From a virus: a stretch of DNA of 38,246 bases. Position numbers and translations under genes: made by a program. Within the stretch, counting starts at the first letter, position 1. Each line of letters starts with the position of its first letter. A model generated the notes under the pieces. The model was given only the letters and a program-made list of their open reading frames with translations, was not told the DNA's origin and did not search any database. Location: the IMG/VR virus record IMGVR_UViG_3300021962_000269, positions 1-38,246 of that record. One strand, 5' to 3'. Shown piece after piece: positions 2,565-31,333 of this stretch.

Positions 2565-5387
2565 ATGGTATCACAACAAGAAATCGAACAATTCCTACTG
2601 GGTGAAGACCCGGAAAAATACATAGTCTCGTTAGAGTATGACTATGCATCAAACAAAATTTACAAAATAATTCACGACCCAATTCAGGGTAAACAAATAA
2701 AAACGGATACATTTATTCCGTTTGCGTGGGTAGGTAGTCTGCATAATAAAAACTTTTACAAGGGTTCAAAAGCCCAACAAAAAGAAGCCATGTCCAAACA
2801 TGGTATCATTATAGAGAAATTAAACTCTGAGGGTGATGAGCGTTTGGAAAATGGATTAAAGTTTTTAGTTAAAACGACAAAGACTTATCAAGATTTAGTA
2901 AACTTTTTCAGAACTGGTGGATTAGACCCATGGGATAGGGAAAATAGTGATGATATCCATATTTTACCCCCCGTCGAACAGTATCTTGTTCAAAAAAGTA
3001 AAAGACTCTTTAAGGGTTTTGAAGAATATGATGAGTTACACCGATTTGTATTCGATATCGAGACCACGGGTTTGGATGCAAAAAAAGACAGCATCTTCCT
3101 AATCGGAATGAAAGACAACCGTGGTTTTGAAAAGGTAATCTCAGCTCAGAATGAGCAAGAAGAAAGACAAATGATTATTGATTTCTTTGAGACAATTAAC
3201 AAACTAAAACCCGCACTTATTGGTGGTTACAACTCGGCATTCTTTGACTTTCCGTTTATTTTAAAACGTGCGGAAATATTGAAGATGGACATTAAGAAGA
3301 TTGCAAAAACATTGAATCCTTCGGTTTCCATCCGTCAAAAAGAGGGTATGTTGAAGTTGGCAAACGAAATGGAACCGTACACACAAACAATGATGTGGGG
3401 TTATAACGTTTTGGATATTGCACATGCTGTTAGACGAGCACAAGCAATTAACTCAGACATTAAGAGTTGGGGACTTAAATATATTACTCAGTTCATTGGT
3501 GCTGAAAAACCTAACCGAGTTTACGTTAAGGGTGACCGAATCGGAAAGACTTATTTCTCTGATGCAAAATACTACTTCAATCCACAGAGTGGTGGATACC
3601 GTGAAGATGGTGACCCAGGTACTGAAAATATTCTACAGAAGTTCCCGGGTAAGTTTGAAGAGGTTACCGGTAGTTACATTGTTGAGAGATACCTTTACGA
3701 TGATATTTGGGAAACCATGGTTGTTGACGAAGAGTTCAACCAAGCCAATTTCTTGTTGGCTAAATTGGTTCCAACAACATACGAACGACTCTCAACAATG
3801 GGTACTGCCACATTGTGGAAGATGATTATGGCATCTTGGTCATATAAAAATGGATTGGCCATTCCTGCAAAAGGACCCAAGCGTTCATTTACAGGTGGAC
3901 TTTCAAGACTACTACAGGTAGGATACTCTCGTGAAGTTTTGAAACTTGACTACTCTTCTCTGTACCCATCTATTCAGTTGGTACATGATGTATTCCCTAA
4001 GTGTGATGTTACAGGTGCGATGAAGAGTATGTTAAAGTATTTCCGTGACACTCGTATTAGATATAAAAAATTAGCTGAAGAACATTACAAAACAGACCCT
4101 AAGTTATCTTCACAGTACGCTCGTAAACAATTACCTATTAAGATTTTTATCAACGCATTCTTTGGTTCTCTTTCCGCCCCTCAGGTATTCCCTTGGGGTG
4201 ATATGGATATGGGTGAACAAATCACTTGTACAGGTAGACAGTATCTTCGTCAAATGATTATGTGGTTTATGAACCGTGGATACGAACCATTGGTTATGGA
4301 TACGGACGGTGTAAACTTTGCAACTCCCGAAGGTCGAGACACTTACATGTATGTCGGTAAAGGATTAAATGGTTTGGTTAAAGAAGGAAAAGAATACTTT
4401 GGTGCCGAAGCCGATGTTGCTGAGTACAATGATTTATTCATGAGAGATGAAATGGGATTGGATATTGATGGTATTTGGCCAGCAACTATTAACGTAGCTC
4501 GTAAAAACTATGCTCTGTTAACTGATAAGGGTAAAGTAAAACTTACAGGTAACAGTATTAAGTCAAAAAAACTACAGACATATGTTGCAGAATTCTTGGA
4601 CTCAGGATTAAGAATGTTGTTAGATGGTAAGGGTCACGAGTTTTTGGAATTCTATTATGAATATGTTGATATGATTTACAACAAGAAAATTCCAATTGCT
4701 AAAATTGCGAACAAGGCTCGTGTAAAACAATCAATTCAAGAATACAAACTACACATAACTAAAAAAACAAAGTCAGGTTCACTGATGTCACGACAAGCTC
4801 ACATGGAACTTCTTTTAGCTAATAATATACCTGCGGGTCTTGGGGATACCGTTTATTATGTTAATAACGGAGCTAGAAAATCTCATGGTGATGTTCAGAA
4901 AAAAGGTGATACGGTAACCGTAAACTGTTACTTGGTAAATGAAAAAGATATTGAAACTAAACCTGATTTGTTGGGTGACTACAATATACCAAGATATTTG
5001 GCAGCATTTAACAAACGTATTGAACCTTTGTTAGTTGTATTCTCTCCTGAGATTCGTGACGAGATTTTGATTGAAGACCCTAAAGACAGAAAGTTCTTCA
5101 CAAAGAATCAATCTAGATTGGTTAGAGGTTTCCCAAGAAGAGAAGGTGACCAAGATACTTTAGATGAAGTACTAACTCTTTCAGAGGGTGAGGTTGAGTT
5201 TTGGACTAATGTTGGAATTGACCCATTCTATATGTACTTAGAAGGTACTATGGAATTAGTTAATACTGAATATGTCGAAAAAAACAAGAATATCATGAAA
5301 GGTCATGAAAAACCTATTGAGAAATCAAAAGATTGGAGTGATGATGAATTTATCGATGATATTCTTGCCGTTCAATATATGAACTAA
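2565..5387 (+). CDS. 43: Family B DNA polymerase (T4 gp43-like)
   Basis: 940 residues (T4 gp43 has 898). It replicates the phage genome with 3'-5' proofreading. Exonuclease motifs: Exo I FDIETTGL with D164 and E166, Exo II YNSAFFDFPF with N223 and D228, Exo III RYLYDDIWE with Y376 and D380. Polymerase motif A is DYSSLYPS (D462); motif B is KIFINAFFGSLSAP; motif C is MDTDGVNF (D579, D581), where the usual DTDS serine is glycine. All catalytic acidic residues are present, so both activities should be intact. The C-terminal tail is acidic and ends in ILAVQYMN, a plausible sliding-clamp contact by analogy with T4. The gene stands alone behind its own promoter and leader hairpin, away from the other replication genes at 32-38 kb, and overlaps the convergent gene on the other strand by 4 bases. 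Confidence 0.96.
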   Translation: MVSQQEIEQFLLGEDPEKYIVSLEYDYASNKIYKIIHDPIQGKQIKTDTFIPFAWVGSLHNKNFYKGSKAQQKEAMSKHGIIIEKLNSEGDERLENGLKFLVKTTKTYQDLVNFFRTGGLDPWDRENSDDIHILPPVEQYLVQKSKRLFKGFEEYDELHRFVFDIETTGLDAKKDSIFLIGMKDNRGFEKVISAQNEQEERQMIIDFFETINKLKPALIGGYNSAFFDFPFILKRAEILKMDIKKIAKTLNPSVSIRQKEGMLKLANEMEPYTQTMMWGYNVLDIAHAVRRAQAINSDIKSWGLKYITQFIGAEKPNRVYVKGDRIGKTYFSDAKYYFNPQSGGYREDGDPGTENILQKFPGKFEEVTGSYIVERYLYDDIWETMVVDEEFNQANFLLAKLVPTTYERLSTMGTATLWKMIMASWSYKNGLAIPAKGPKRSFTGGLSRLLQVGYSREVLKLDYSSLYPSIQLVHDVFPKCDVTGAMKSMLKYFRDTRIRYKKLAEEHYKTDPKLSSQYARKQLPIKIFINAFFGSLSAPQVFPWGDMDMGEQITCTGRQYLRQMIMWFMNRGYEPLVMDTDGVNFATPEGRDTYMYVGKGLNGLVKEGKEYFGAEADVAEYNDLFMRDEMGLDIDGIWPATINVARKNYALLTDKGKVKLTGNSIKSKKLQTYVAEFLDSGLRMLLDGKGHEFLEFYYEYVDMIYNKKIPIAKIANKARVKQSIQEYKLHITKKTKSGSLMSRQAHMELLLANNIPAGLGDTVYYVNNGARKSHGDVQKKGDTVTVNCYLVNEKDIETKPDLLGDYNIPRYLAAFNKRIEPLLVVFSPEIRDEILIEDPKDRKFFTKNQSRLVRGFPRREGDQDTLDEVLTLSEGEVEFWTNVGIDPFYMYLEGTMELVNTEYVEKNKNIMKGHEKPIEKSKDWSDDEFIDDILAVQYMN

Positions 5388-5719
5388 GAATTTTTTAAAC
5401 CATCAGACGAAAGGATGTACCATTTGTTAATAACAAATCTCATTTCTACACAAGCGCCTTTTTGGATTAAAATTTCATTATAATCATCATCAATCTTTTC
5501 GTTTGGTGATGATATCAGAACCTCAGTCATTGCTTTAATTACAACGTGTTCTGTTGTTTTTGGGTCTAAAGTAACTACACATTTTGGAACATCTCTTACA
5601 ATAATTGTGTACTCACCTGTTGTTGTATATGTTGGGTCAGTTACTACAGAAACGTTTGACGCTTCTACCGTAATTCCATTAATAATTTTTGTTACTGGTG
5701 TGGATTTAAAAACTGCCAT
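5384..5719 (-). CDS. Small beta-rich hypothetical protein, possibly a virion component
   Basis: 111 residues with alternating hydrophobic/polar residues and few predicted helices. The C-terminal stretch VEMRFVINKWYILSSDGLKN resembles the end of small phage appendage or decoration proteins, which often close with a WyI..sD pattern. No catalytic motif was recognised. It lies 7 bases downstream of gp13 on the same strand with no promoter of its own, so it is probably co-transcribed with that neck gene and could be expressed late. It ends with TAG and overlaps the polymerase stop codon tail-to-tail. Function unknown. Confidence 0.55.
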   Translation of the reverse strand: MAVFKSTPVTKIINGITVEASNVSVVTDPTYTTTGEYTIIVRDVPKCVVTLDPKTTEHVVIKAMTEVLISSPNEKIDDDYNEILIQKGACVEMRFVINKWYILSSDGLKNS

Positions 5720-5726
5720 ATAAAAA

Positions 5727-6839
5727 TTATATCACATACATCTGTCTAGGTAAAGCTCTGTATTGTAAAGACTTATTAAGTTGTTCAGCTAAGTTAGCCT
5801 GAATTTCCATTTGTTTGTCAGGACGGAGTCTTTCCAATCTTGCCAATAATTCTTCAATCAACTTAGATTTTTCGTCTTTAGATTCTGTTAGAAGTGAATC
5901 GTAATCCATTTTCAATTCACTGTCAGGAGTTTTTAAGTCACCTGAATACTTTCCTCTTACTCTACCTAAAGTTTCTTTTACATATGCGGTAAACCATCTA
6001 CGTACCCATGTTTGTGCAGGTGCATTAAGTTCTGCCCATCTTAAATTATCAATTGTTACGTCTGATGGTAATTTTACAACATCAGGGTTGGCAGCTAAAC
6101 AATCGTCTCTATCAAATGTATCGTAATACCAATACCAAACTCTACGTGAGTTGTTTTCTATATTTCCAAAATCAAATTTACCTCCCGGTACATTATACAA
6201 CATGATGGCCTTTTTACCTTCAGGAAGTGCGGTAATTCTATAAGTTAAATCACCCGCAATAATTCTTCTCTTCAGATTTATGTCTTGCATTCTAAGAAGG
6301 ATGTCAAATGCCGGTGTGATAAAATAGTTTCCGGTAGTTCCTAATTGTGAAAAACCTGCACCTCCACCTAAACCCATACCACCGAATCCACCAAATCCAC
6401 CCATGAATGGGTCAAAATATGCTGCGTCTAATTCAGGTCTTGTAAACCAAAGTAATTCGTTAATTTCTCTACCCGCAGGTATTTCATAAATTTGTTGGTT
6501 GGCTACCAAGTCAAAATAGTCTTTTTTAAGAACCCACGGACCACCAGCCTGTAAACCTACAATTTTTGAATATGCGTATGTGTACTGAGTCTCCCAATCC
6601 AAACTTCTCGTAATAAAAGCGTTTGCCAATGATTGTGTGTCTAAGTCCATACCGTATATGGATGTCCACTGTGATTCAATTAACCAATCAAGAACATATT
6701 GAGAATAATCTTCAACGGATAATTCTAATAATGAATCCATCATTTCATCCTCAATCTCAACACCACGTATAGGTGCACCTAATAGGTGTCTTATCCTTGT
6801 GTATAATTTTGTTCTTTCTGTTCCAGTAATAATTGCCAT
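5727..6839 (-). CDS. 13: Neck protein gp13-like (head completion)
   Basis: 370 residues (T4 gp13 has 309). In T4, gp13 and gp14 form the neck that closes the filled head and joins it to the tail. The C-terminal half carries the gp13-like region from ELNAPAQTWVRRWFTAYVKE through LGRVRGKYSG, followed by a charged helical segment with DSLLTESKDEKSKLIEELL. An unusual glycine/phenylalanine-rich loop (about residues 146-162) interrupts the middle and probably extends a surface loop. The protein is soluble, without membrane segments. The gene is on the strand opposite gp14, gp15 and gp18, although it is a virion gene, and has a TATTTATA element 15 bases upstream in its own direction. Assignment rests on the C-terminal pattern and the nearby gp14/gp15/gp18 genes. 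Confidence 0.75.
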   Translation of the reverse strand: MAIITGTERTKLYTRIRHLLGAPIRGVEIEDEMMDSLLELSVEDYSQYVLDWLIESQWTSIYGMDLDTQSLANAFITRSLDWETQYTYAYSKIVGLQAGGPWVLKKDYFDLVANQQIYEIPAGREINELLWFTRPELDAAYFDPFMGGFGGFGGMGLGGGAGFSQLGTTGNYFITPAFDILLRMQDINLKRRIIAGDLTYRITALPEGKKAIMLYNVPGGKFDFGNIENNSRRVWYWYYDTFDRDDCLAANPDVVKLPSDVTIDNLRWAELNAPAQTWVRRWFTAYVKETLGRVRGKYSGDLKTPDSELKMDYDSLLTESKDEKSKLIEELLARLERLRPDKQMEIQANLAEQLNKSLQYRALPRQMYVI

Positions 6840-6880: not shown

Positions 6881-8440
6881 TTACTTATTTAATAAATCCT
6901 CAGCGGGAAAAGTATAATTACCATTAACAATGTTGGTGTTTTTGTTACTAAAAACTAATGTTCCTTTATTGTCACGGTGGAAAACTAAATAATCTACTTT
7001 GTATCTTTTTACGTTTCCTGTATCATAAACCGTAATAATACCATCCTTTTCTTCTGTTCTTGAAAATGGTTTTATTTGTGCGGTCTTCTCAATACCATCT
7101 ATTTTAATAATGGCATCGACACCACCCAACATATCATTAACATCTCCAAGTTCACCAACTTTTAAAACCTCATCAGTTCCAAAAATTTTCTTCATATTAT
7201 CAACGGCATTGACCTCTCTTTTGTCTCCAAACTTATTTGTGGTGTCTAATCCTGACATTAATGTTTTGAATGTTGAAGCTTCAGGATTAAAAATTCTATA
7301 TCTAAACTCAATCAAATATTTGATTAGTCTTTCAGTTTCTTTAAGTTGAACTTCAGGTTTTTGTCCAACCATATTGATTGTATCTACTCCGTATTTTTTT
7401 AAAACCTCATTGATGTCGTTCACAAGTGTACAAAACGCAGTGTAGTTAGTATTCAATTTATTAATTACCGACCTACCGGGTTGTTCGTAATCATAAACGC
7501 CAGACATTTGTCCTTCACCGTATTGATTTTTTTCATACCAAAAATCGGCAAACACTTCTTTAAGAATATTCATAATTGCAAACATGAATTTTTTCTTAAC
7601 CTCAGGGTTTGTGTTGAATATTTGTCTGTATGTGTTTACTTGAGATGCGTTACAACCTCTTGAAGCTCCTTCAATAATAATATTTTTTACATCACGGGTT
7701 TCATTAATTTTTTTTTTCGTTTTAGAATCAAATCTAAAATTAATAAAACTCCAATTGATAACTGTAAAGAAATTTTTGACGTACTCGTCTCGTTTGTTAC
7801 GGTACTTCAAATAATATGCGTGTTCCCATAAATCCAATCCCAACAAAGGATATCCACCATCGGTAATTGAATTCATCAATGGGTTATCTTGATTTCTTGT
7901 TGTCATGATTTTTAAATCACCACTTTTAGTTAAAACTAACCAAACCCAACCTGAACCAAATACGGTTTTAGCTTTTCTTGTAAATTCTTGTTTGAATTTC
8001 TCGTAGTCACCATATTTTTTTACAATTTTATCGTAAACAGGACCATTAGGTTTTTGTTGTTTTGGTGATAACATTTTCCAAAATAACTCGTGGTTATATG
8101 CTCCACCAGCATTGTTGTGAATGGTAACATTATATCTTGAAATACCCTTGATGATATTTTCTAAATCTAAATCTTTGTCTTTAATTTTTTCGAGTGCCAA
8201 ATTTAATTTTTCAACATAACCTTTGTAGTGTTTGTTGTAGTGGGTATTCATAGTTTCACTATCGATAAATCTTGAGAGTGCTGAGTATGAATATGGTAAT
8301 CTTTCTACTTTAATTTTTGTTGTTGATTCTTTTTTGGCTTCGTCGATTTGTTGGGTGTCACCACTACTTGGTAGGTCTGTTATTAACTTTTCCAACTCCT
8401 CAATCTTTTTTCTTTGTTTTGTAAATTTCATTTTTTTCAT
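6881..8440 (-). CDS. Superoxide dismutase (Mn type) fused to a C-terminal PD-(D/E)XK-like domain
   Basis: 519 residues. Residues ~45-232 are a complete iron/manganese superoxide dismutase: metal ligands H67 (THYNKHY), H117 (AYNHELFW), D203 and H207 (LDLWEHAYY). NNAGG and NQD (Q184) are the manganese-type discriminators, in contrast to the AAQ pattern of iron enzymes. A typical bacterial enzyme would end near here. Instead ~285 residues follow: a helical region (~250-395), then E409, D442 (GGVDAIIKID) and Q455-x-K457 (AQIKPF), the spacing of a PD-(D/E)XK nuclease core. Residues 1-40 are charged and helical, with IDEA (32-35) resembling a T4 prohead protease site. A TATTTATT element lies 5 bases before the first ATG and 14 before the second (8431), so translation may begin at the second. 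It sits between gp13 and the helicase. The dismutase call is firm; the nuclease call is tentative. Confidence 0.85.
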   Translation of the reverse strand: MKKMKFTKQRKKIEELEKLITDLPSSGDTQQIDEAKKESTTKIKVERLPYSYSALSRFIDSETMNTHYNKHYKGYVEKLNLALEKIKDKDLDLENIIKGISRYNVTIHNNAGGAYNHELFWKMLSPKQQKPNGPVYDKIVKKYGDYEKFKQEFTRKAKTVFGSGWVWLVLTKSGDLKIMTTRNQDNPLMNSITDGGYPLLGLDLWEHAYYLKYRNKRDEYVKNFFTVINWSFINFRFDSKTKKKINETRDVKNIIIEGASRGCNASQVNTYRQIFNTNPEVKKKFMFAIMNILKEVFADFWYEKNQYGEGQMSGVYDYEQPGRSVINKLNTNYTAFCTLVNDINEVLKKYGVDTINMVGQKPEVQLKETERLIKYLIEFRYRIFNPEASTFKTLMSGLDTTNKFGDKREVNAVDNMKKIFGTDEVLKVGELGDVNDMLGGVDAIIKIDGIEKTAQIKPFSRTEEKDGIITVYDTGNVKRYKVDYLVFHRDNKGTLVFSNKNTNIVNGNYTFPAEDLLNK

Positions 8441-8472: not shown

Positions 8473-10230
8473 TTATCTTCGTCGGGATATTGAGTTAAGA
8501 ATTTCTTCTAAAATACCCCCCTTATCTTCATTATCACCCATTACGGTGGAAATAATATTTTTCTTTTTAGTTAAGATATCATATATCACTCCTTCAATAG
8601 TATTATCAAATAGAGGATAAAAAATAGAAACATTAGATTTTTGTCCGTAACGGTACGCTCTGTCCTCTGCTTGTGCGTGGTCTGCAGGTACAAATGATAA
8701 ATCATTCATGATTACAGCTTCGGCTGCGGTTAAGGTGATACCGACACCGGCCGCTTTTAAGTTACCGATGAAAACTTTTATTTTATCATTTTCTTGGAAT
8801 TGGTCCACGGAGTTCTGTCTTGCGGGTTTACTCATGGAACCGTCCAATGTAACTGCCGTCTTACCAAAATGTTCTTTGATTTGATTTAAAGTGTTTGTGA
8901 AGTTTGTAAAAATAATAACTTTTTTTCCTTGTTCGATGATGTTTTCAGCAACCTCGATTGTGTGTTTTATTTTTTCTTCAGCCATAACTTGTCTAACCTT
9001 CATCAGTTTTGAAAACTGAACGGTTAGCGATTTTGACTCTTCAGAGGTTTCATACCAATTATAGTACTCACCCATAAGGGCTTCATATTGTTTTGACTTT
9101 AAATTTAAATAAACTGGTGTGATAATTTTATCAGGTAAATCTAAGATGTCTTCTTTGAGTCTTCTTAATACTTGTGGTTTTGTTCTGTCACGCAACTCTT
9201 CTAAGTTAGAAGCTCCATCCAATTTCCAAACTTTTCTATTACCAACTTTAAACTGATAACCTTCACAGTATCTTCTGACATATGCCATCCAATTCCAAGC
9301 AACTGGTGAATCAACTAAATCCAACAAGTTGAAGTAGTTGATAGGTCTTGATGTCATCGGTGTTCCTGTCAGTAACCAAATTCTACCAATTTTTTTACAA
9401 ATTTCATTTACGATTTTTGTTCTCTGTGCTTGTTTGTTTTGAATGTAGTGTGCTTCGTCCACGACAACCAAATCAAAATTCTCATTAATAATTTGTGAAT
9501 TTTTTAAGTCTTTGGAATCGTAAAAGTTTTTAAGAATGTCGTAGTTGACAATAACATAATCGCCTGACTCCCAATTCTTACCTTCAACTATTGAAACCTT
9601 TTTATCTGTATAGTTGGCGATTTCTCTTTGCCAGTTAATCTTCAAAGATGCTGGACAAATAATTAAAACTTTATTTGCCCTTGTTTCCAAAGACGCAATT
9701 ACGGTTGAAGTTGTTTTACCCAAACCCATATCGTCAGCCAAAATAAATTTGTCATTTGATACTAATTTTTTGATTGCTTCTTTTTGGTGTTCCAACGGTG
9801 GTCGTTGAGTGTACTTTGAATAATCAATTTCAACTACCTTTTCCCTGTTTGGAATAATTGCCGCTTTTGGTAACCAAAAGTCGTGAAGGTCTTCTGATTC
9901 AAATAACTTACCAAACAGGTGAAACGCTTTATCTTTCTCGGCCAAAATTTTCTCGACATAAATCTGTTCAGGTTGACGAGTTAATAATTTGTCTTCCATC
10001 ATTCTTTTGGCGAAATACTTATCCAACGGAACCCACTTACGAGCAACCTTTGGAACAATCTTATGGAAATCTATAACGTAGTCGGCTTGTGGTCGAGTAA
10101 TTTTATAATGTTTCTGAGTTTCAACTTTTCTTTTAATACCAAGTATATAATTATTAAACCCCTCGTATGTCTCCAAAATACGAAGTGCCCTGATTTCAGG
10201 GATGTTAGATTTAATAGATTGTTCCTGCAT
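8473..10230 (-). CDS. SNF2-family DNA helicase/translocase
   Basis: 585 residues. Residues 1-140 form an N-terminal region without a recognised fold. The ATPase core follows: LEHQKEA (Q motif-like), Walker A GLGKT (169-173), Ia ICPASLKINW, DEAH box (258-261), motif III LTGTP (287-291), then in the second RecA lobe VIIFTNF, GVGITLTAAE and the arginine-finger motif QAEDRAYRYGQ. This order and the final motif are typical of SWI2/SNF2 proteins, especially the SMARCAL1-like group that anneals or remodels forked DNA. T4 has UvsW for fork regression and branch processing; this protein may fill that role, but it belongs to a different helicase family, so I do not give it that name. No nuclease domain is visible. 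It is the first gene of the leftward block and has its own possible sigma70-like promoter, fitting earlier expression than its neighbours. Confidence 0.92.
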   Translation of the reverse strand: MQEQSIKSNIPEIRALRILETYEGFNNYILGIKRKVETQKHYKITRPQADYVIDFHKIVPKVARKWVPLDKYFAKRMMEDKLLTRQPEQIYVEKILAEKDKAFHLFGKLFESEDLHDFWLPKAAIIPNREKVVEIDYSKYTQRPPLEHQKEAIKKLVSNDKFILADDMGLGKTTSTVIASLETRANKVLIICPASLKINWQREIANYTDKKVSIVEGKNWESGDYVIVNYDILKNFYDSKDLKNSQIINENFDLVVVDEAHYIQNKQAQRTKIVNEICKKIGRIWLLTGTPMTSRPINYFNLLDLVDSPVAWNWMAYVRRYCEGYQFKVGNRKVWKLDGASNLEELRDRTKPQVLRRLKEDILDLPDKIITPVYLNLKSKQYEALMGEYYNWYETSEESKSLTVQFSKLMKVRQVMAEEKIKHTIEVAENIIEQGKKVIIFTNFTNTLNQIKEHFGKTAVTLDGSMSKPARQNSVDQFQENDKIKVFIGNLKAAGVGITLTAAEAVIMNDLSFVPADHAQAEDRAYRYGQKSNVSIFYPLFDNTIEGVIYDILTKKKNIISTVMGDNEDKGGILEEILNSISRRR

Positions 10231-10247
10231 TGAACTAAATAATTAAA

Positions 10248-10276
10248 AAGATAATCAAATTTGTAATATTTATCAA
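10248..10276 (-). promoter_or_regulatory. Possible sigma70-like promoter of the SNF2 helicase gene
   Basis: On the minus strand TTGATA (10276 to 10271) and TATCTT (10253 to 10248) are 17 bases apart. The -35 hexamer shares bases with the late-type element of the divergent gp14 gene. The match is weaker than for gp43 and gp32. Confidence 0.35.
10267..10274 (+). promoter_or_regulatory. TATTTATC putative late promoter element of gp14
   Basis: TATTTATC ends only 4 bases before the gp14 ATG. If it works as a -10 element, transcription would start at or next to the start codon, giving a leaderless or nearly leaderless message. It overlaps the -35 element of the divergent helicase promoter. Confidence 0.45.
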
Positions 10277-15351: not shown

Positions 15352-15501
15352 ATGGAATTCAAAAAATCAAAGTTAAATGAAAATCTTAACGTACCTGCAT
15401 CAGGTAAAAAGACTTTCTCAAAGAAATCACAAAATATCATTGTTTCTGAAGCTCAATTAGAAAGATTGATTGAAAAAATCGCAAAAGACAAAAATGTTTA
15501 A
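15352..15501 (+). CDS. 49-residue basic hypothetical protein
   Basis: Starts at ATG in a CC-ATGG context after an A-rich leader downstream of the sheath terminator. The first 30 residues are Lys/Asn/Ser-rich and probably disordered; the end (IIVSEAQLERLIEKIAKDKN) is a predicted amphipathic helix. Short tails of the form I.xSExQ..RLIEK recur at the ends of proteins in phages of this type as far as I recall. Its last 8 bases overlap the next gene (ATGTTTAA), so the two are translationally coupled. No function recognised; its partner may be the HAD-like protein. Confidence 0.65.
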   Translation: MEFKKSKLNENLNVPASGKKTFSKKSQNIIVSEAQLERLIEKIAKDKNV

Positions 15502-16342
15502 AAAAGTTTTAAGAGAGTTTTTAGAAGAAAAACTTTTACGTGAAGGTTTTGATGAAGCGGGTAATCCCGACCTCAAATATTATGCGTTTGATTGGGATGA
15601 CAATATTGTATTCATGCCGACAGAAATTATAGTATCTACGGCTGACGGTAAAGAGGTTGGTATGGGTACGGAAGACTTTGCTGAATATAGAATGGACATC
15701 GGTAAAGAACCATTTATGTATAAGGGTGAGGAAATTGTTGCATTTGCAAACGACCCGTTTAGAAACTTCGGAATGAAGGGGGACTCACAGTTTATCGTTG
15801 ACGCTATGTTAGCTAAACCAGGACCTTCTTGGGACGATTTTGTGGAGTGTTTAAATGGTGGTTCCATCTTTGCGATTATCACAGCAAGAGGACACAACCC
15901 TGAAACACTAAAAGAAGCAACTTACAATTACATAGTTACAAATCACAATGGAATTTCAAAGTCAGAATGTATATCTAATTTAAAAAAATTTAGAGATTTT
16001 GCAGACGAGTCCAATTCTAACGAAAACGATTTAATTATGGAATATTTGGATATGTGTAAGTTCCACCCTGTAACTTTTGGTGAAGGTTCGGCAACAAATC
16101 CTGAAGAAGGAAAAATAAAAGCCCTAAGAGAATTTATCTCTTATGTAAAATCTATGGCTTCAAAATTGGGTAAGCAAGCGTTTTTAAAGAATGATGTTAA
16201 AAACAGATTTGTACCAGAAATAGGATTTTCTGATGACGACCCTAGAAACATAGAAAAGATAAAGCAATTCCTAGATACTGAATATTCAGATAAACCAGTA
16301 AGAACTTATTTAACTAAGGGAGGAGAAAAGAAAGAAATATAA
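15494..16342 (+). CDS. HAD-superfamily phosphatase-like protein
   Basis: 282 residues from the ATG at 15494; a TTG farther upstream in the same frame is unlikely because the overlapping ATG couples to the preceding gene. Haloacid dehalogenase motifs: I AFDWDDN (D33 nucleophile, D35 acid/base), II IITARGH (T130), a candidate motif III lysine in EEGKIKALREF (K207), and IV GFSDDDPRN (D247-D249). Spacing is enlarged by a ~90-residue insertion after motif I and another after motif II. HAD proteins hydrolyse phosphate esters; T4 PseT has a related 3'-phosphatase domain, but no kinase domain is present here. The substrate is unknown. The N-terminus (FKKVLREFLEEKLLRE) is a charged amphipathic helix ending in LREG, which resembles a capsid-targeting segment. 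It lies between sheath and tube genes, an unusual place for an enzyme. Confidence 0.8.
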   Translation: MFKKVLREFLEEKLLREGFDEAGNPDLKYYAFDWDDNIVFMPTEIIVSTADGKEVGMGTEDFAEYRMDIGKEPFMYKGEEIVAFANDPFRNFGMKGDSQFIVDAMLAKPGPSWDDFVECLNGGSIFAIITARGHNPETLKEATYNYIVTNHNGISKSECISNLKKFRDFADESNSNENDLIMEYLDMCKFHPVTFGEGSATNPEEGKIKALREFISYVKSMASKLGKQAFLKNDVKNRFVPEIGFSDDDPRNIEKIKQFLDTEYSDKPVRTYLTKGGEKKEI

Positions 16343-27700: not shown

Positions 27701-30700
27701 ACAAACTTAGAATTATCGGGTTACTACTTAGAAAAATTCACAAACAATAATACATTGTTGATAACTGAGTCAAATATAGACTATGGTAGTGATTACTCAG
27801 GTAGTGTCTCAAGATATCAGACAACATCTCTACTTAACACTCCGTATTTTGTAAACGCAATTATGGAAGGTGTTGATAATGTAAAATCGGGTAATCAATA
27901 TCCATATAAAAACTTAGGTTACTTATTCCTTAATTCTTTACCTATATCAACATTTAGAGAGAAAACATTATCTGCAGAAATAACAAATACAATTATTGCT
28001 GAAAAACAAAACAACTATCTTTCAAGTATATTCAATAAAGTTTCAGCTCTTCATAAGTTACCATACGCATTTATTTTAAAATATGGTTCTATTTGGCATA
28101 GATACAAAACATATATTGAAACAGGTACTGATATTTTGGATAGTGTTTGGACAAGTTTTGATTACGATGTTGCGTACGACCCAACTACTTCAGCATCAAC
28201 AACAACTTATGATATTGTAGATTATCAGGGTTCAGCATACACTTACTCACTTAACTATACTAACACAGGTAGTTTGGGTATTAACATTGGTATGTACCCA
28301 AAGGTGATAAACTCACTTTATTATATGTTCCAAGATGAGGACATCATTACTGGATACACATCAACTGATTGGTCTGCGGCATATGACAACGGATTGAGAA
28401 TTGGTAAGACAAATCAGTCTTCAGTTTACTTAGGTCTTGGTTCATTAAATAATGACCCATTGAATACGGTATCAATCAAGAACTGGTATTCATATATTAC
28501 AACAACAAATCTATATACTTCTGATTTAAGTACTAGAATAATTGTTGTACCGTCGACAGGTGCTTTGAAATTCAATCAGTATAAATTTGAAAATCAAAAT
28601 CCATTATTAACTAATTTCAATAAAACATCTGTTGAAATCGAAACTGACCCAACACTTTATGATGGTTCAGTTAGAACACTTTGGAATTCATCAAACTTTG
28701 GATTTTTTGACCATGGACTGACAAAGAAACCAAGTTATAACGAATATTTGAAAATTGTTGACCCGGCAAAAGAATTCCAAAATCCTTTCGATATTACATA
28801 CCAAGGACAATACTCAAATATTGAAGAAATATTTGGTGTTTTACCAAAACAAATTTTGGATGAATTTGAACAAGAATTCTTGAAGTTTGTACAGAAACCT
28901 TCAGATAGTATAGCCGCACTTGCAGGAGAACAGTTGGGATTAGATTACTTCACACCAAACACATTAAGTGCGTGGGAGAATAGAAATTTAGTGCAAGTAT
29001 TGAGTAGTCTATTCACAATTACAGATGTTCCACTTACCGGTAATGAAGACAAGGATGGTCCACTAATTGCAGATAAACAGTTAGCAACATTCGCTTTTGG
29101 TATTGATGATTTCTTATCATACCAAGTAATTTTTAAAAGAGGAAACCCTGGTAATTTCAATAGAAGGGTTTGGAACTCATTCTCAACAAACGCAACAGTA
29201 AAACCGTTAGACCCAATTAACTTCGGTCCGTATGTACCTAATTCATTACCTTCATCAAGTGGTGGTATAACTTTGAGTCAGTCTATATCACAAAACGCAG
29301 ATGCTTGGGAACAATTATATTTGAACGTTGGTCAATATAGATTAAATGAACTGGCGTATAAAGATAGTGGTTCATACATAACTGACTTCTTCATCGACTT
29401 CAACATTGCGTTTACTTCGGATAACATAATACAGTTGGCTCCGATTATCAAAATGTATGCAACTCAAAAAGTTGAAAACGGACCTACTTACGGTTCTGCA
29501 AGTTTCCTTACAAGTTTCAACAGTTACTTATCAGACTTAAACAAGTATCAATCAAATGTTCTAAACCACATCTTCAGATACTTGAATCAAAATCTACCAA
29601 ACATAACTGAATTAAAAAATCAAAGAGTAAGTGCGTTAGATGGTGAAGTAGCGAAAGTAGAAATATGGGAGACATTCAAATCAATGAATGATAAGTGGGT
29701 TGCTGGTGGTGACTTCAAAAACAGAACATTGTTTGAAGATTTTATATTCTTGGATAGAGCCAACAGAGACATCGGAAACAAATTAATTGTTGATGTAACA
29801 ACACTTACTGGTTATTTAACCGCCACTAACGATAAACTGTCTGTTTATAGTTTGATTAGTGAATTGTTAAGTAAAAACAATTTATTGTTTATGGCGTTAC
29901 CGTCTTATGTAAACTTTTATGGGGTACAAGAAACTGGTAAAGGTGGAACACCGATTAATATTGATGTTCCTAATAGTGCTTTTGGAACATTCATGGAGGT
30001 AGACTATCAACAATCAAAACCAAAATTTGTTTGTATCTACACTGATAAGTTGTCAGAACACACTCAACAAAAAAATAATATAGACTACAGATTCAATTCC
30101 GATAGTTTTGATATTGGTAGATGTGCAGACAATCCTTTGAGGGAATCTAATCCTAACAAGGAAGATTATGGTAGTTCTAACAAGGTAGTTGCCTTTAATG
30201 TTGATTTTGGTATTAGAAATCAGAACATATTCAGGTCAATCGATTTGAATCAGTCTCAATATAAAAACACATCTGAAGCGTTCACCGTACTTGTTGATAT
30301 TGCAAACCAAACAAAAGGTCAGAAAGCGGTTCAACAGAGTACATCTTTATATAATTTATACAAAAGTAGAAGTTATACATGTAAGGTTGAGTCTATGGGT
30401 AATGCTATGGTACAACCTACAATGTATTTCAATTTGAGATATGTTCCGATGTTTACTGGAGCTTATTGGATTACAAATGTATCACACAACATATCTCCAC
30501 AAGATTTTACAACATCATTCTCAGGTGTCAGAATTTCTAAGTATTCGTTCCCTAACTTTAGCAAGTTAACGATGGGGGTAAATATAGACCTATTAAGGAG
30601 ATACCAAAAGAAAAAAGAAGTTATACCGGTATCGGTTACTGCCGAAACACCAACTACAAGTGTTATTTCCGTAAGTGGAAAAACTAATGGTAATGTTAGT

Positions 30701-31333
30701 AAGACACCTATCAAGACAGTTCCAGGTAGTTGTAAAACGGCGTACCCATCACTTCCGTTTGTTGATGCAAATTACACAATTATAGGAAAACAAGATGTCG
30801 TAACCTACTTGAACACTAGAACAGACGTTCCGTTGAATATCAAAAAACTTGTATTCGCAATGGCAACTCAAGAACAAAACCGAAACCAAAATCAATTTGG
30901 TTGTGTGGGTTATGACATATATGGTATTCATACAGATGGAAGATGGTCATCAAATATGATGGAATATGTAATAGGACAAGAATGTGTAAAAGTCAACGAT
31001 AAGGGAAGACCGTATAGACCATTGGCTATATTCAACTCTTATGAGAATGCAATAAACTTTGTATTAGCTAGATTTAATACACCAGCATTTAATAATAAAT
31101 TTAATATCTATAAAGTTAGATATGGAAGTGAAGGTGAGGCTGCTGCAAGGATTTGGTTAGGTTGGTGGAATTTAGGTGTTGGTTTAAGAAGACCAGGAGA
31201 TGGTCCGTTATCTGCAGAACAAAGAATTACCGAACAAATAAATAAAAGAATTTCTGATGGGTTGCCGTGGACAGTGACGGTGGGTATATTTGAAACTGCA
31301 ATAAAAAGGGCTAAAGCTTTAGGTCTAAATTAA
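24737..31333 (+). CDS. Giant baseplate hub-like protein with C-terminal lysozyme-like domain
   Basis: 2198 residues, the largest gene here. The N-terminal ~240 residues (LLGITSIKIENNTSFIPMVS, IEMVDVQGRTLFEQ, LTVKGYYGKAIRYELMLKSF) have the layout of a hub or tube-like domain (gp27/gpD class). A long, Ser/Thr/Asn-rich middle follows. RYVPMFTGAYWITNVSHNIS (about residue 1905) is a further hub-type segment. After a Thr/Ser/Lys linker (~1955-2000), residues ~2010-2198 resemble a lysozyme/transglycosylase domain: LNIKKLVFAMATQEQN with a candidate catalytic Glu, then FGCVGYDIYGI and a WLGWWNLGVG stretch. In T4, gp5 carries a lysozyme domain in the hub; here a different fold may do that work. It overlaps gp53 by 11 bases. 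It may be a fusion of several hub parts; assignment of gp27-like structure is tentative. Confidence 0.7.
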   Translation: MADNKRFTDGNIAWEESCDNIILVDPNKIYDKNGQFQERLVPHENLVMYANLEARIIPRTKLAVGENFNELASNRAIANFGGSPDGKINFLKPQGDSQYFDTSWSDQITGQGALEGRGINQQQENRVVDGNVVRFPRQVLNKLDTQLLGITSIKIENNTSFIPMVSIEMVDVQGRTLFEQGENSPYSAFLQLPYPLFYLTVKGYYGKAIRYELMLKSFNARFDPTKGDYIVSVEFIGRTAAILSDVPMGALYALPHMYNTTLEVQNAEDTLTQSTSQQILQNANNPDETVGALARQQQSGQNVTEPVTSISLTKGYQKISQAYQYYKSRGLISPDFPELTLAQLKLKLDGLEKYITQSFSKQDLSVLNDIDDYREVITLYRENIYGQNARAWFIKYMDGKNVLVSKETGELIYKFQKKYSADLQTKKDALVELNALIEKYNEKLLTNSTFGSDGTYQIDGKKQSSALSFDVSIDDFIITLDPENIEEQIDVNKSVILSKGIAQPTSADTLSFLASLKIDLATSSYKFDWQTKKIVPDPSSEYYKFGNIFQSSKLVKDSFLNTLADLESRFGKLQEKIERELSEALLQKIENSETGLGFKPTIRNVMAVIMASVDGFYSLMDDVHSNAWALRTDPIRLSAILSNDEVNGVDSKDSVPGTQSGEENFIYPWPQYFESEIDENNNNSFVLKYIADPNSTVRTKGYLFDKWPEVEFVEQYITGALLRQALPEPITSPNQKQSAPFIPNNAIEYPFNVIPYGNKSAVPFYYEIFERTYLATNYSKLFKSPQSKQDLYAVIGDFEAYTIKQQILSDPFLMMQLKRYGFNFTNFVPFLQNISNDGKGESWALYERDYFVTPYIRTYLEKDFGIYSIDTINADSITVDESQSSEKNLIEYLKGSDSSAMTLTDTYPFTSLSWLKSNMALGNTIASVENANDTTKSLYWLDTKKTITSFNPRQYISPINDVPLTSLTWKNTSLNQNIQGGGVQPSIQTNLELSGYYLEKFTNNNTLLITESNIDYGSDYSGSVSRYQTTSLLNTPYFVNAIMEGVDNVKSGNQYPYKNLGYLFLNSLPISTFREKTLSAEITNTIIAEKQNNYLSSIFNKVSALHKLPYAFILKYGSIWHRYKTYIETGTDILDSVWTSFDYDVAYDPTTSASTTTYDIVDYQGSAYTYSLNYTNTGSLGINIGMYPKVINSLYYMFQDEDIITGYTSTDWSAAYDNGLRIGKTNQSSVYLGLGSLNNDPLNTVSIKNWYSYITTTNLYTSDLSTRIIVVPSTGALKFNQYKFENQNPLLTNFNKTSVEIETDPTLYDGSVRTLWNSSNFGFFDHGLTKKPSYNEYLKIVDPAKEFQNPFDITYQGQYSNIEEIFGVLPKQILDEFEQEFLKFVQKPSDSIAALAGEQLGLDYFTPNTLSAWENRNLVQVLSSLFTITDVPLTGNEDKDGPLIADKQLATFAFGIDDFLSYQVIFKRGNPGNFNRRVWNSFSTNATVKPLDPINFGPYVPNSLPSSSGGITLSQSISQNADAWEQLYLNVGQYRLNELAYKDSGSYITDFFIDFNIAFTSDNIIQLAPIIKMYATQKVENGPTYGSASFLTSFNSYLSDLNKYQSNVLNHIFRYLNQNLPNITELKNQRVSALDGEVAKVEIWETFKSMNDKWVAGGDFKNRTLFEDFIFLDRANRDIGNKLIVDVTTLTGYLTATNDKLSVYSLISELLSKNNLLFMALPSYVNFYGVQETGKGGTPINIDVPNSAFGTFMEVDYQQSKPKFVCIYTDKLSEHTQQKNNIDYRFNSDSFDIGRCADNPLRESNPNKEDYGSSNKVVAFNVDFGIRNQNIFRSIDLNQSQYKNTSEAFTVLVDIANQTKGQKAVQQSTSLYNLYKSRSYTCKVESMGNAMVQPTMYFNLRYVPMFTGAYWITNVSHNISPQDFTTSFSGVRISKYSFPNFSKLTMGVNIDLLRRYQKKKEVIPVSVTAETPTTSVISVSGKTNGNVSKTPIKTVPGSCKTAYPSLPFVDANYTIIGKQDVVTYLNTRTDVPLNIKKLVFAMATQEQNRNQNQFGCVGYDIYGIHTDGRWSSNMMEYVIGQECVKVNDKGRPYRPLAIFNSYENAINFVLARFNTPAFNNKFNIYKVRYGSEGEAAARIWLGWWNLGVGLRRPGDGPLSAEQRITEQINKRISDGLPWTVTVGIFETAIKRAKALGLN

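Follow-up and report, generated by a model that had tools for sequence, protein, structure and literature searches.

A superoxide dismutase joined to a PD-(D/E)XK-type nuclease at a modular locus of jumbo phages, with a candidate prohead-protease site between the two domains

The proteases that act in head maturation of tailed phages, such as T4 gp21 and those of giant phages, cleave after glutamate within short motifs, and in T4 proteins fused to the leaders of IPIII are packaged and delivered (PMC9026906, PMC5694885). Redundant protease sites are known from the head proteins of phiKZ (PMC9026906). Superoxide dismutases (SODs) also occur in viruses: the virion of the chlorovirus PBCV-1 packages one (PMC7019647), ROS-defense genes that include dismutases are often encoded by freshwater phages (PMC6802176), and free SOD genes are present in PA5oct-like, Vibrio, and other phages. 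A fusion of a SOD with a nuclease was not described in the literature that we searched, in which the jumbo-phage reviews do not mention dismutases and the paper on polyvalent proteins (PMC5512222) does not contain the word “superoxide”. A preliminary description of the DNA analyzed here had stated that no described fusion of this kind was known, which agrees with this literature, although the sequence databases apparently contain one. The UniProt entry A0A6J5L953 from an uncultured Caudovirales phage (501 aa), annotated solely as “superoxide dismutase”, shares its C-terminal fold with the protein investigated here (E 2.1e-26, TMq 0.87, 39% identity) and, judging from that fold, appears to be a SOD-nuclease fusion too, so that the sequence type is already deposited, though as far as we found undescribed.

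The window, by which we mean the whole analyzed stretch of 38,246 nucleotides, encodes this protein on its minus strand in an open reading frame (ORF) confirmed at positions 6881-8440. The assignment of a Mn-type SOD and a PD-(D/E)XK-type domain within its 519 residues is well supported, and the ORF is laid out as follows.

6881..8440, minus strand: SOD-nuclease fusion ORF, 519 aa, with the ATG at 8440 and the stop at 6883-6881
8321..8440, minus strand: N-terminal leader, residues 1-40, variable in the alignment, with residues 20-40 predicted to be disordered
7721..8320, minus strand: Fe/Mn superoxide dismutase domain, residues 41-240 (Pfam, PDB sequence match, Foldseek, invariant ligands)
7655..7720, minus strand: linker, residues 241-262, of which 242-258 are predicted to be disordered (pLDDT, conservation profile)
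7667..7678, minus strand: candidate prohead-protease site (I/L)-x-E|G, present as I-I-E|G at residues 255-258 (conservation)
6884..7654, minus strand: nuclease domain of the PD-(D/E)XK type, residues 263-519; its N-terminal half is alpha-helical (AlphaFold2, Foldseek)
7070..7216, minus strand: catalytic signature E409 (7216-7214), D442 (7117-7115), and Q455-x-K457 (7078-7070), invariant in 46/46 aligned relatives

Relatives that match over the full length share 52-96% identity with the fusion. The pLDDT of the full-length model drops below 50 only at residues 1-6, 20-40, and 242-258. Between the window and its relative L006, dN/dS is ~0.08 in the SOD domain as well as in the nuclease domain, which indicates that each of the two is under constraint.

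The N-terminal half had been described as a Mn-type dismutase with all four metal ligands, and this description is borne out. The Pfam domains Sod_Fe_N (75.4 bits, cut-off 27, 4.9e-21) and Sod_Fe_C (130.7 bits, cut-off 20.9, 2.4e-38) both lie well above their cut-offs in the fusion ORF, the nearest solved chain by sequence is the SOD of C. difficile (E 1.3e-59), and the predicted fold matches the MnSOD of Sphingobacterium with a Foldseek TMt of 0.92 (by target length). The metal ligands H67, H117, D203, and H207 (three His, one Asp) are invariant in 41/41 fused relatives, as are the Mn-type residues G112/G113 and Q184. By its Pfam domains and ligands, the region of residues 41-240 is a Fe/Mn superoxide dismutase with predicted activity.

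For the C-terminal half, a PD-(D/E)XK-like core formed by E409, D442, and Q455-x-K457 had been proposed, with structure prediction as the check on the topology. The AlphaFold2 model of this half (mean pLDDT 88.6) does have the PD-(D/E)XK topology, and the predicted fold agrees with the invariant residues. The underlying alignment of 46 sequences takes in a standalone homologue from the 735-kb phage LR756501, which keeps E409, D442, Q455, and K457 at only ~26-30% identity. The best fold match in the PDB is I-Ssp6803I (Foldseek E 3.7e-3, probability 1.00), followed with weaker E by Hjc resolvases, which like I-Ssp6803I are of the PD-(D/E)XK type; globally the match is modest (TMq 0.23), since the alignment spans only part of the domain. 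Members of the PD-(D/E)XK superfamily commonly diverge beyond recognition by sequence. Residues 263-519 gave no significant Pfam, PHROG, or PDB profile match, and the assignment therefore rests on the fold and the invariant residues, by which membership of the superfamily is well supported and nuclease activity is predicted. ArsA and DUF2738 were rejected as identities for this half, as both were profile hints below the cut-off, and a comparison with T4 gp2 was negative. A role as a defense or anti-defense device, also raised in the preliminary description, is not borne out, as the fusion protein matched none of the PADLOC models of defense systems; a standalone homologue matched SduA weakly (0.0031).

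A profile search found the nuclease family in at least 364 IMG/VR stretches, and in most of those examined it is fused to a SOD. The largest of these contigs reach ~318 kb, from which it follows that the carriers are jumbo phages. The relatives encode a T4-type gp23 and an S77 prohead protease, and the window itself has T4-like tail tube, UvsX, SSB, and DnaB-type genes. Relatives were not found in the cellular genomes scanned, so that no link to a host or prophage could be drawn, and the homologue of the 735-kb phage, used as sole query, had no match among the viral contigs. The gp23 resembles that of Flavobacterium and Rhodothermus phages, which gives a weak lead towards a host from the Bacteroidota.

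To what extent the two domains belong together can be judged from 80 loci that were sampled via the neighboring neck gene rather than via the nuclease. All 80 carry a SOD, a window-type nuclease, or both at the same position: 31 have the fusion, 40 a SOD without the window-type nuclease, five only the nuclease, and four both as separate ORFs, which places a SOD in 75/80. One of the four separate-ORF loci (L267) is probably a frameshift; the apparent splits in L199 and L267 both look like frameshifts and were not counted as gene fissions. In L313, L317, and L318, the SOD and nuclease ORFs overlap by one base and the split looks genuine.

Where the window-type nuclease is missing, the SOD stands alone (~235-257 aa), follows an N-terminal HExxH zincin domain (~363-367 aa), or is combined with both a zincin domain and other C-terminal domains (693-958 aa). 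The domain in front of the SOD, seen in L319 (1882-2343), L305, L308, L309, and others, has an invariant HExxH with a downstream EDEA and is zincin-like; it had no Pfam match above the cut-off and only weak PHROG matches. One of the alternative C-terminal domains has an invariant E102...P-x-D122...S-C-K134. It is found in L319 (2965-3975) and its relatives, where the invariant DFE...PxD...SCK may point to a second SOD-linked family that is PD-(D/E)XK-like, and homology between it and the window nuclease was not found. In another C-terminal domain, a D...QVK aligns to the window nuclease motif with a pairwise E of 0.006. Both alternative domains are only nuclease-like, by motif.

The SOD can also be missing. 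A clade of 294-aa nucleases nests within the SOD-bearing sequences. Compared with a 92% identical relative that has the fusion, the L211 group lacks exactly 203 residues, the SOD, through a clean deletion that preserves the reading frame as well as the leader and the junction motif IISE|GK on either side. On this sequence evidence, the SOD is lost in some lineages at the locus, and no other Fe/Mn SOD was found on the contigs from members without it (318 kb, 272 kb, 309 kb, and 215 kb), which may be incomplete. Such swaps and losses suggest that each module is useful by itself, and they speak against an enzyme with two tightly coupled steps. Of the earlier proposal of a dismutase with a linked nuclease, the fusion itself is thus real, but other architectures exist beside it and strict coupling is unlikely.

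Two other explanations can be weighed against these loci. The gene could be an auxiliary one that counters the oxidative stress of the infected host, in which case the SOD would be selected and the nuclease would be incidental cargo. The presence of a SOD in 75 of the 80 loci, the free SOD genes of PA5oct-like, Vibrio, and other phages, and the frequency of ROS-defense genes in freshwater phages (PMC6802176) all fit, but the nuclease has a dN/dS of ~0.08 and is kept in lineages from which the SOD was deleted, which shows that selection acts on the nuclease itself, and we regard this explanation as improbable. Even less probable, in our judgment to the point of being nearly dismissed, is a head-completion nuclease analogous to T4 gp4 to which a SOD became attached. 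Its appeal is that the nuclease gene adjoins the neck gene and that no gp4 (phrog_218) match was found in nine relatives, a search that was also blank in control genomes; yet a profile comparison with T4 gp4 (hhalign) gave a probability of 0.3%, for which gp4 homology was rejected, and many relatives have no window-type nuclease at the locus, which would be odd for an essential head-joining factor.

The genes around the fusion form a run on the same strand.

10267..10273, minus strand: ATAAATA element 5' of the helicase, candidate for a late promoter that serves the whole run (8/8 genomes)
8473..10230, minus strand: SNF2-type helicase, first gene of the run (Pfam; phrog_62; order kept in nearly all loci reaching it)
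5727..6839, minus strand: neck/head-tail adaptor-like protein, 370 aa, directly downstream of the fusion (phrog_211, E 1.1e-9; conserved neighbor)
5384..5719, minus strand: conserved 111-aa protein, last gene of the run (conserved order)

The order is polB, the 111-aa protein, the neck protein, the nuclease with or without SOD, and the SNF2 helicase, followed by divergent genes and the tail sheath, and from polB to the tail sheath it is kept in nearly all loci that extend that far, the SOD-less ones included. According to PADLOC, the helicase resembles SNF2 helicases of the ZorD/DpdE type. Its version in L007/L009 (3069-5972) is 967 aa long, the Walker A motif being interrupted by what looks like an intein (DDMGAGK...HNTTST), and the helicase ORF of L086 is comparably long. 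An intein-like start, AGDTKIATPDGFITIKELADKG, is also seen in a 998-aa portal-like protein (G001 contig, 27976-30972; L112), of which a relative's version has 618 aa.

The late-type element mentioned in the preliminary description does not belong to the fusion gene directly: no TATAAATA lies upstream of this gene in the window, where the motif occurs at chance frequency (6 found, 4.3 expected), and it is ATAAATA that precedes the helicase instead. In eight contigs taken together, the regions upstream of genes are enriched in TATAAATA, with 51 copies against ~11 expected. Late expression of the fusion via a transcript shared with the helicase is plausible.

This arrangement is also what gives weight to an uncut two-domain enzyme that would work in the infected cell with the neighboring SNF2 helicase, its nuclease serving phage DNA metabolism or the breakdown of host DNA and its SOD protecting nearby metal centers or DNA. 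The genes for helicase, fusion, and neck protein lie on one strand and keep their order in nearly all loci reaching them, the helicase has the ZorD/DpdE-type resemblance, and genes for UvsX, SSB, and an exonuclease lie in the same window. However, the SOD partner varies and is often absent while the helicase stays, which means that the coupling is not fixed, and a variable linker with a conserved xE motif would be unexpected in a rigid fusion. We therefore consider the uncut enzyme unlikely, if still the most serious of the competing explanations.

The junction between the two domains, inside the stretch with pLDDT below 50, is variable in sequence except for (I/L)-x-E-G. An (I/L)xE|(G/A/S) is present there in 43/46 aligned relatives, with E257 in 44/45, I or L at position 255 in 44/45, and G or S at position 258 in 43/45; the few relatives in which the motif is absent include L064 and L330. 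The same linker has a second [IL]xE at E247. Among 66 deduplicated proteins with a C-terminal partner, different partners included, [IL]xE follows the SOD in 66/66, whereas the control motifs [IL]xD, [IL]xQ, and [IL]xK do so in 1/66, 10/66, and 26/66. Most relatives have a further site before the SOD, which is missing from the window's own clade; it was set aside as main evidence because [IL]xK is nearly as frequent there.

A matching protease is encoded by relatives. The window is a 38-kb fragment in which the S77 protease gene is absent, but 7/9 large relatives carry an S77 prohead protease of the T4 gp21 type, and 8/9 carry gp23. In a scan of 75 ortholog groups from eight related contigs, [IL]xE|[GAS] is kept in every genome at six positions only, two of them in gp23, including LINE|A, the expected cut of the delta domain, and the others in a gp22-like scaffold, the leader of a 283-aa HAD-like protein, a protein near the portal, and the SOD-nuclease junction. 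The total of six is not above that of the fully kept controls [IL]xK|[GAS] (16) and [IL]xD|[GAS] (6), yet gp22 and gp23 make up 3.5% of the residues and hold 3/6 of the kept positions (p ~0.0008, computed post hoc). It is the location of these positions rather than their number that is suggestive. The (I/L)xE|G of the linker looks, as a sequence motif, like a cutting site of the phage's head-maturation protease, though E257 could instead be conserved for structural reasons.

Two further protein groups were seen with leaders of possible interest. The HAD-like family (283 aa in G002) is encoded in the window at 15494-16342 on the plus strand and has a leader with a conserved LxE|G(F/I)D at its end, which makes it a candidate for another head-targeted enzyme with the same type of motif. 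In G001, G002, G005, and G008, four proteins have the basic leader KxxIKLTESDLxxIIxxVxxEQ in common, possibly another targeting leader.

The reading that we prefer, and to which we give an even chance, is that of a late head-targeted precursor that is cut between SOD and nuclease during head maturation, with both parts ejected together with the DNA. In a distant T4-like jumbo phage, the 519-aa precursor would be expressed late and taken into the prohead by its N-terminal leader, where the S77 prohead protease, of the T4 gp21 type, would cleave the I-I-E|G of the disordered linker behind E257. The released Mn-type SOD and PD-(D/E)XK nuclease would remain in the head and be ejected with the genome. 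The dismutase would then remove superoxide that harms the newly infected cell or the DNA entering it, and the target of the nuclease at this early stage would be DNA, be it host or competing DNA or the phage's own DNA in need of processing. We infer the late expression, packaging, cleavage, ejection, and substrates of this precursor; that it is cut apart rather than acting as a coupled enzyme is probable. The earlier idea of a packaged or injected protein is indirectly supported by the linked neck gene and by a conserved linker site of the prohead-protease type, and it is weakened by the position of the fusion gene, which adjoins the helicase gene outside the gp21-gp23 head cluster.

Extended to the locus as a whole, the preferred reading becomes more tentative, and we place it somewhat below an even chance: the locus would encode SOD-centered head polyproteins that the protease cuts into a SOD and an interchangeable nuclease, such that an antioxidant and a DNA-acting enzyme are co-injected. 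The interchangeable nucleases would comprise at least two nuclease-like types without detectable relation, sometimes accompanied by a zincin domain.

If cleavage and packaging are true, this would be an antioxidant enzyme borne by the virion of a tailed phage and delivered with a nuclease, the two derived from one precursor that is split in head maturation. Whether superoxide limits early phage infection would become directly testable, and the swapped partner domains would be candidate injected effectors in widespread, little-studied jumbo phages. Even without packaging, the fusion and its modular locus constitute a sizeable family that, as far as we found, has so far been annotated only as “superoxide dismutase”.

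Compared with known systems, the N-terminal domain is like other Fe/Mn SODs (PF00081/PF02777), such as those of C. difficile and Sphingobacterium (MnSOD), in its Pfam domains, ligands, Mn-type second-shell residues, and predicted fold, and unlike them the phage protein adds a leader and a C-terminal nuclease and is encoded in jumbo phages, with a helicase gene on one side and a neck gene on the other. The nuclease domain has the core strands of I-Ssp6803I and the Hjc-type Holliday resolvases, with E...D...QxK in the expected places, and differs from them in its extra alpha-helical N-terminal half and low global TM-score. With the internal proteins of T4 (IPI-III, Alt) and the ejection proteins of giant phages, the fusion has in common an xE motif of the prohead-protease type, a leader, an S77 protease in relatives, and the idea of an enzymatic cargo. 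Its sequence has no demonstrated relation to the T4 proteins and its packaging is proposed here from the genes; the proposed cut would fall between two enzymes, whereas the T4 internal proteins are cut only after a short leader. Polyvalent proteins (Iyer et al. 2017, PMC5512222) likewise unite unrelated enzyme domains in one protein encoded near virion genes, and some relatives of the fusion similarly add a HExxH zincin domain; the processing proposed for the fusion, in contrast, would be by the prohead protease. Each module is therefore of a known type, and the proposed logic resembles that of the T4 internal proteins and the polyvalent proteins.
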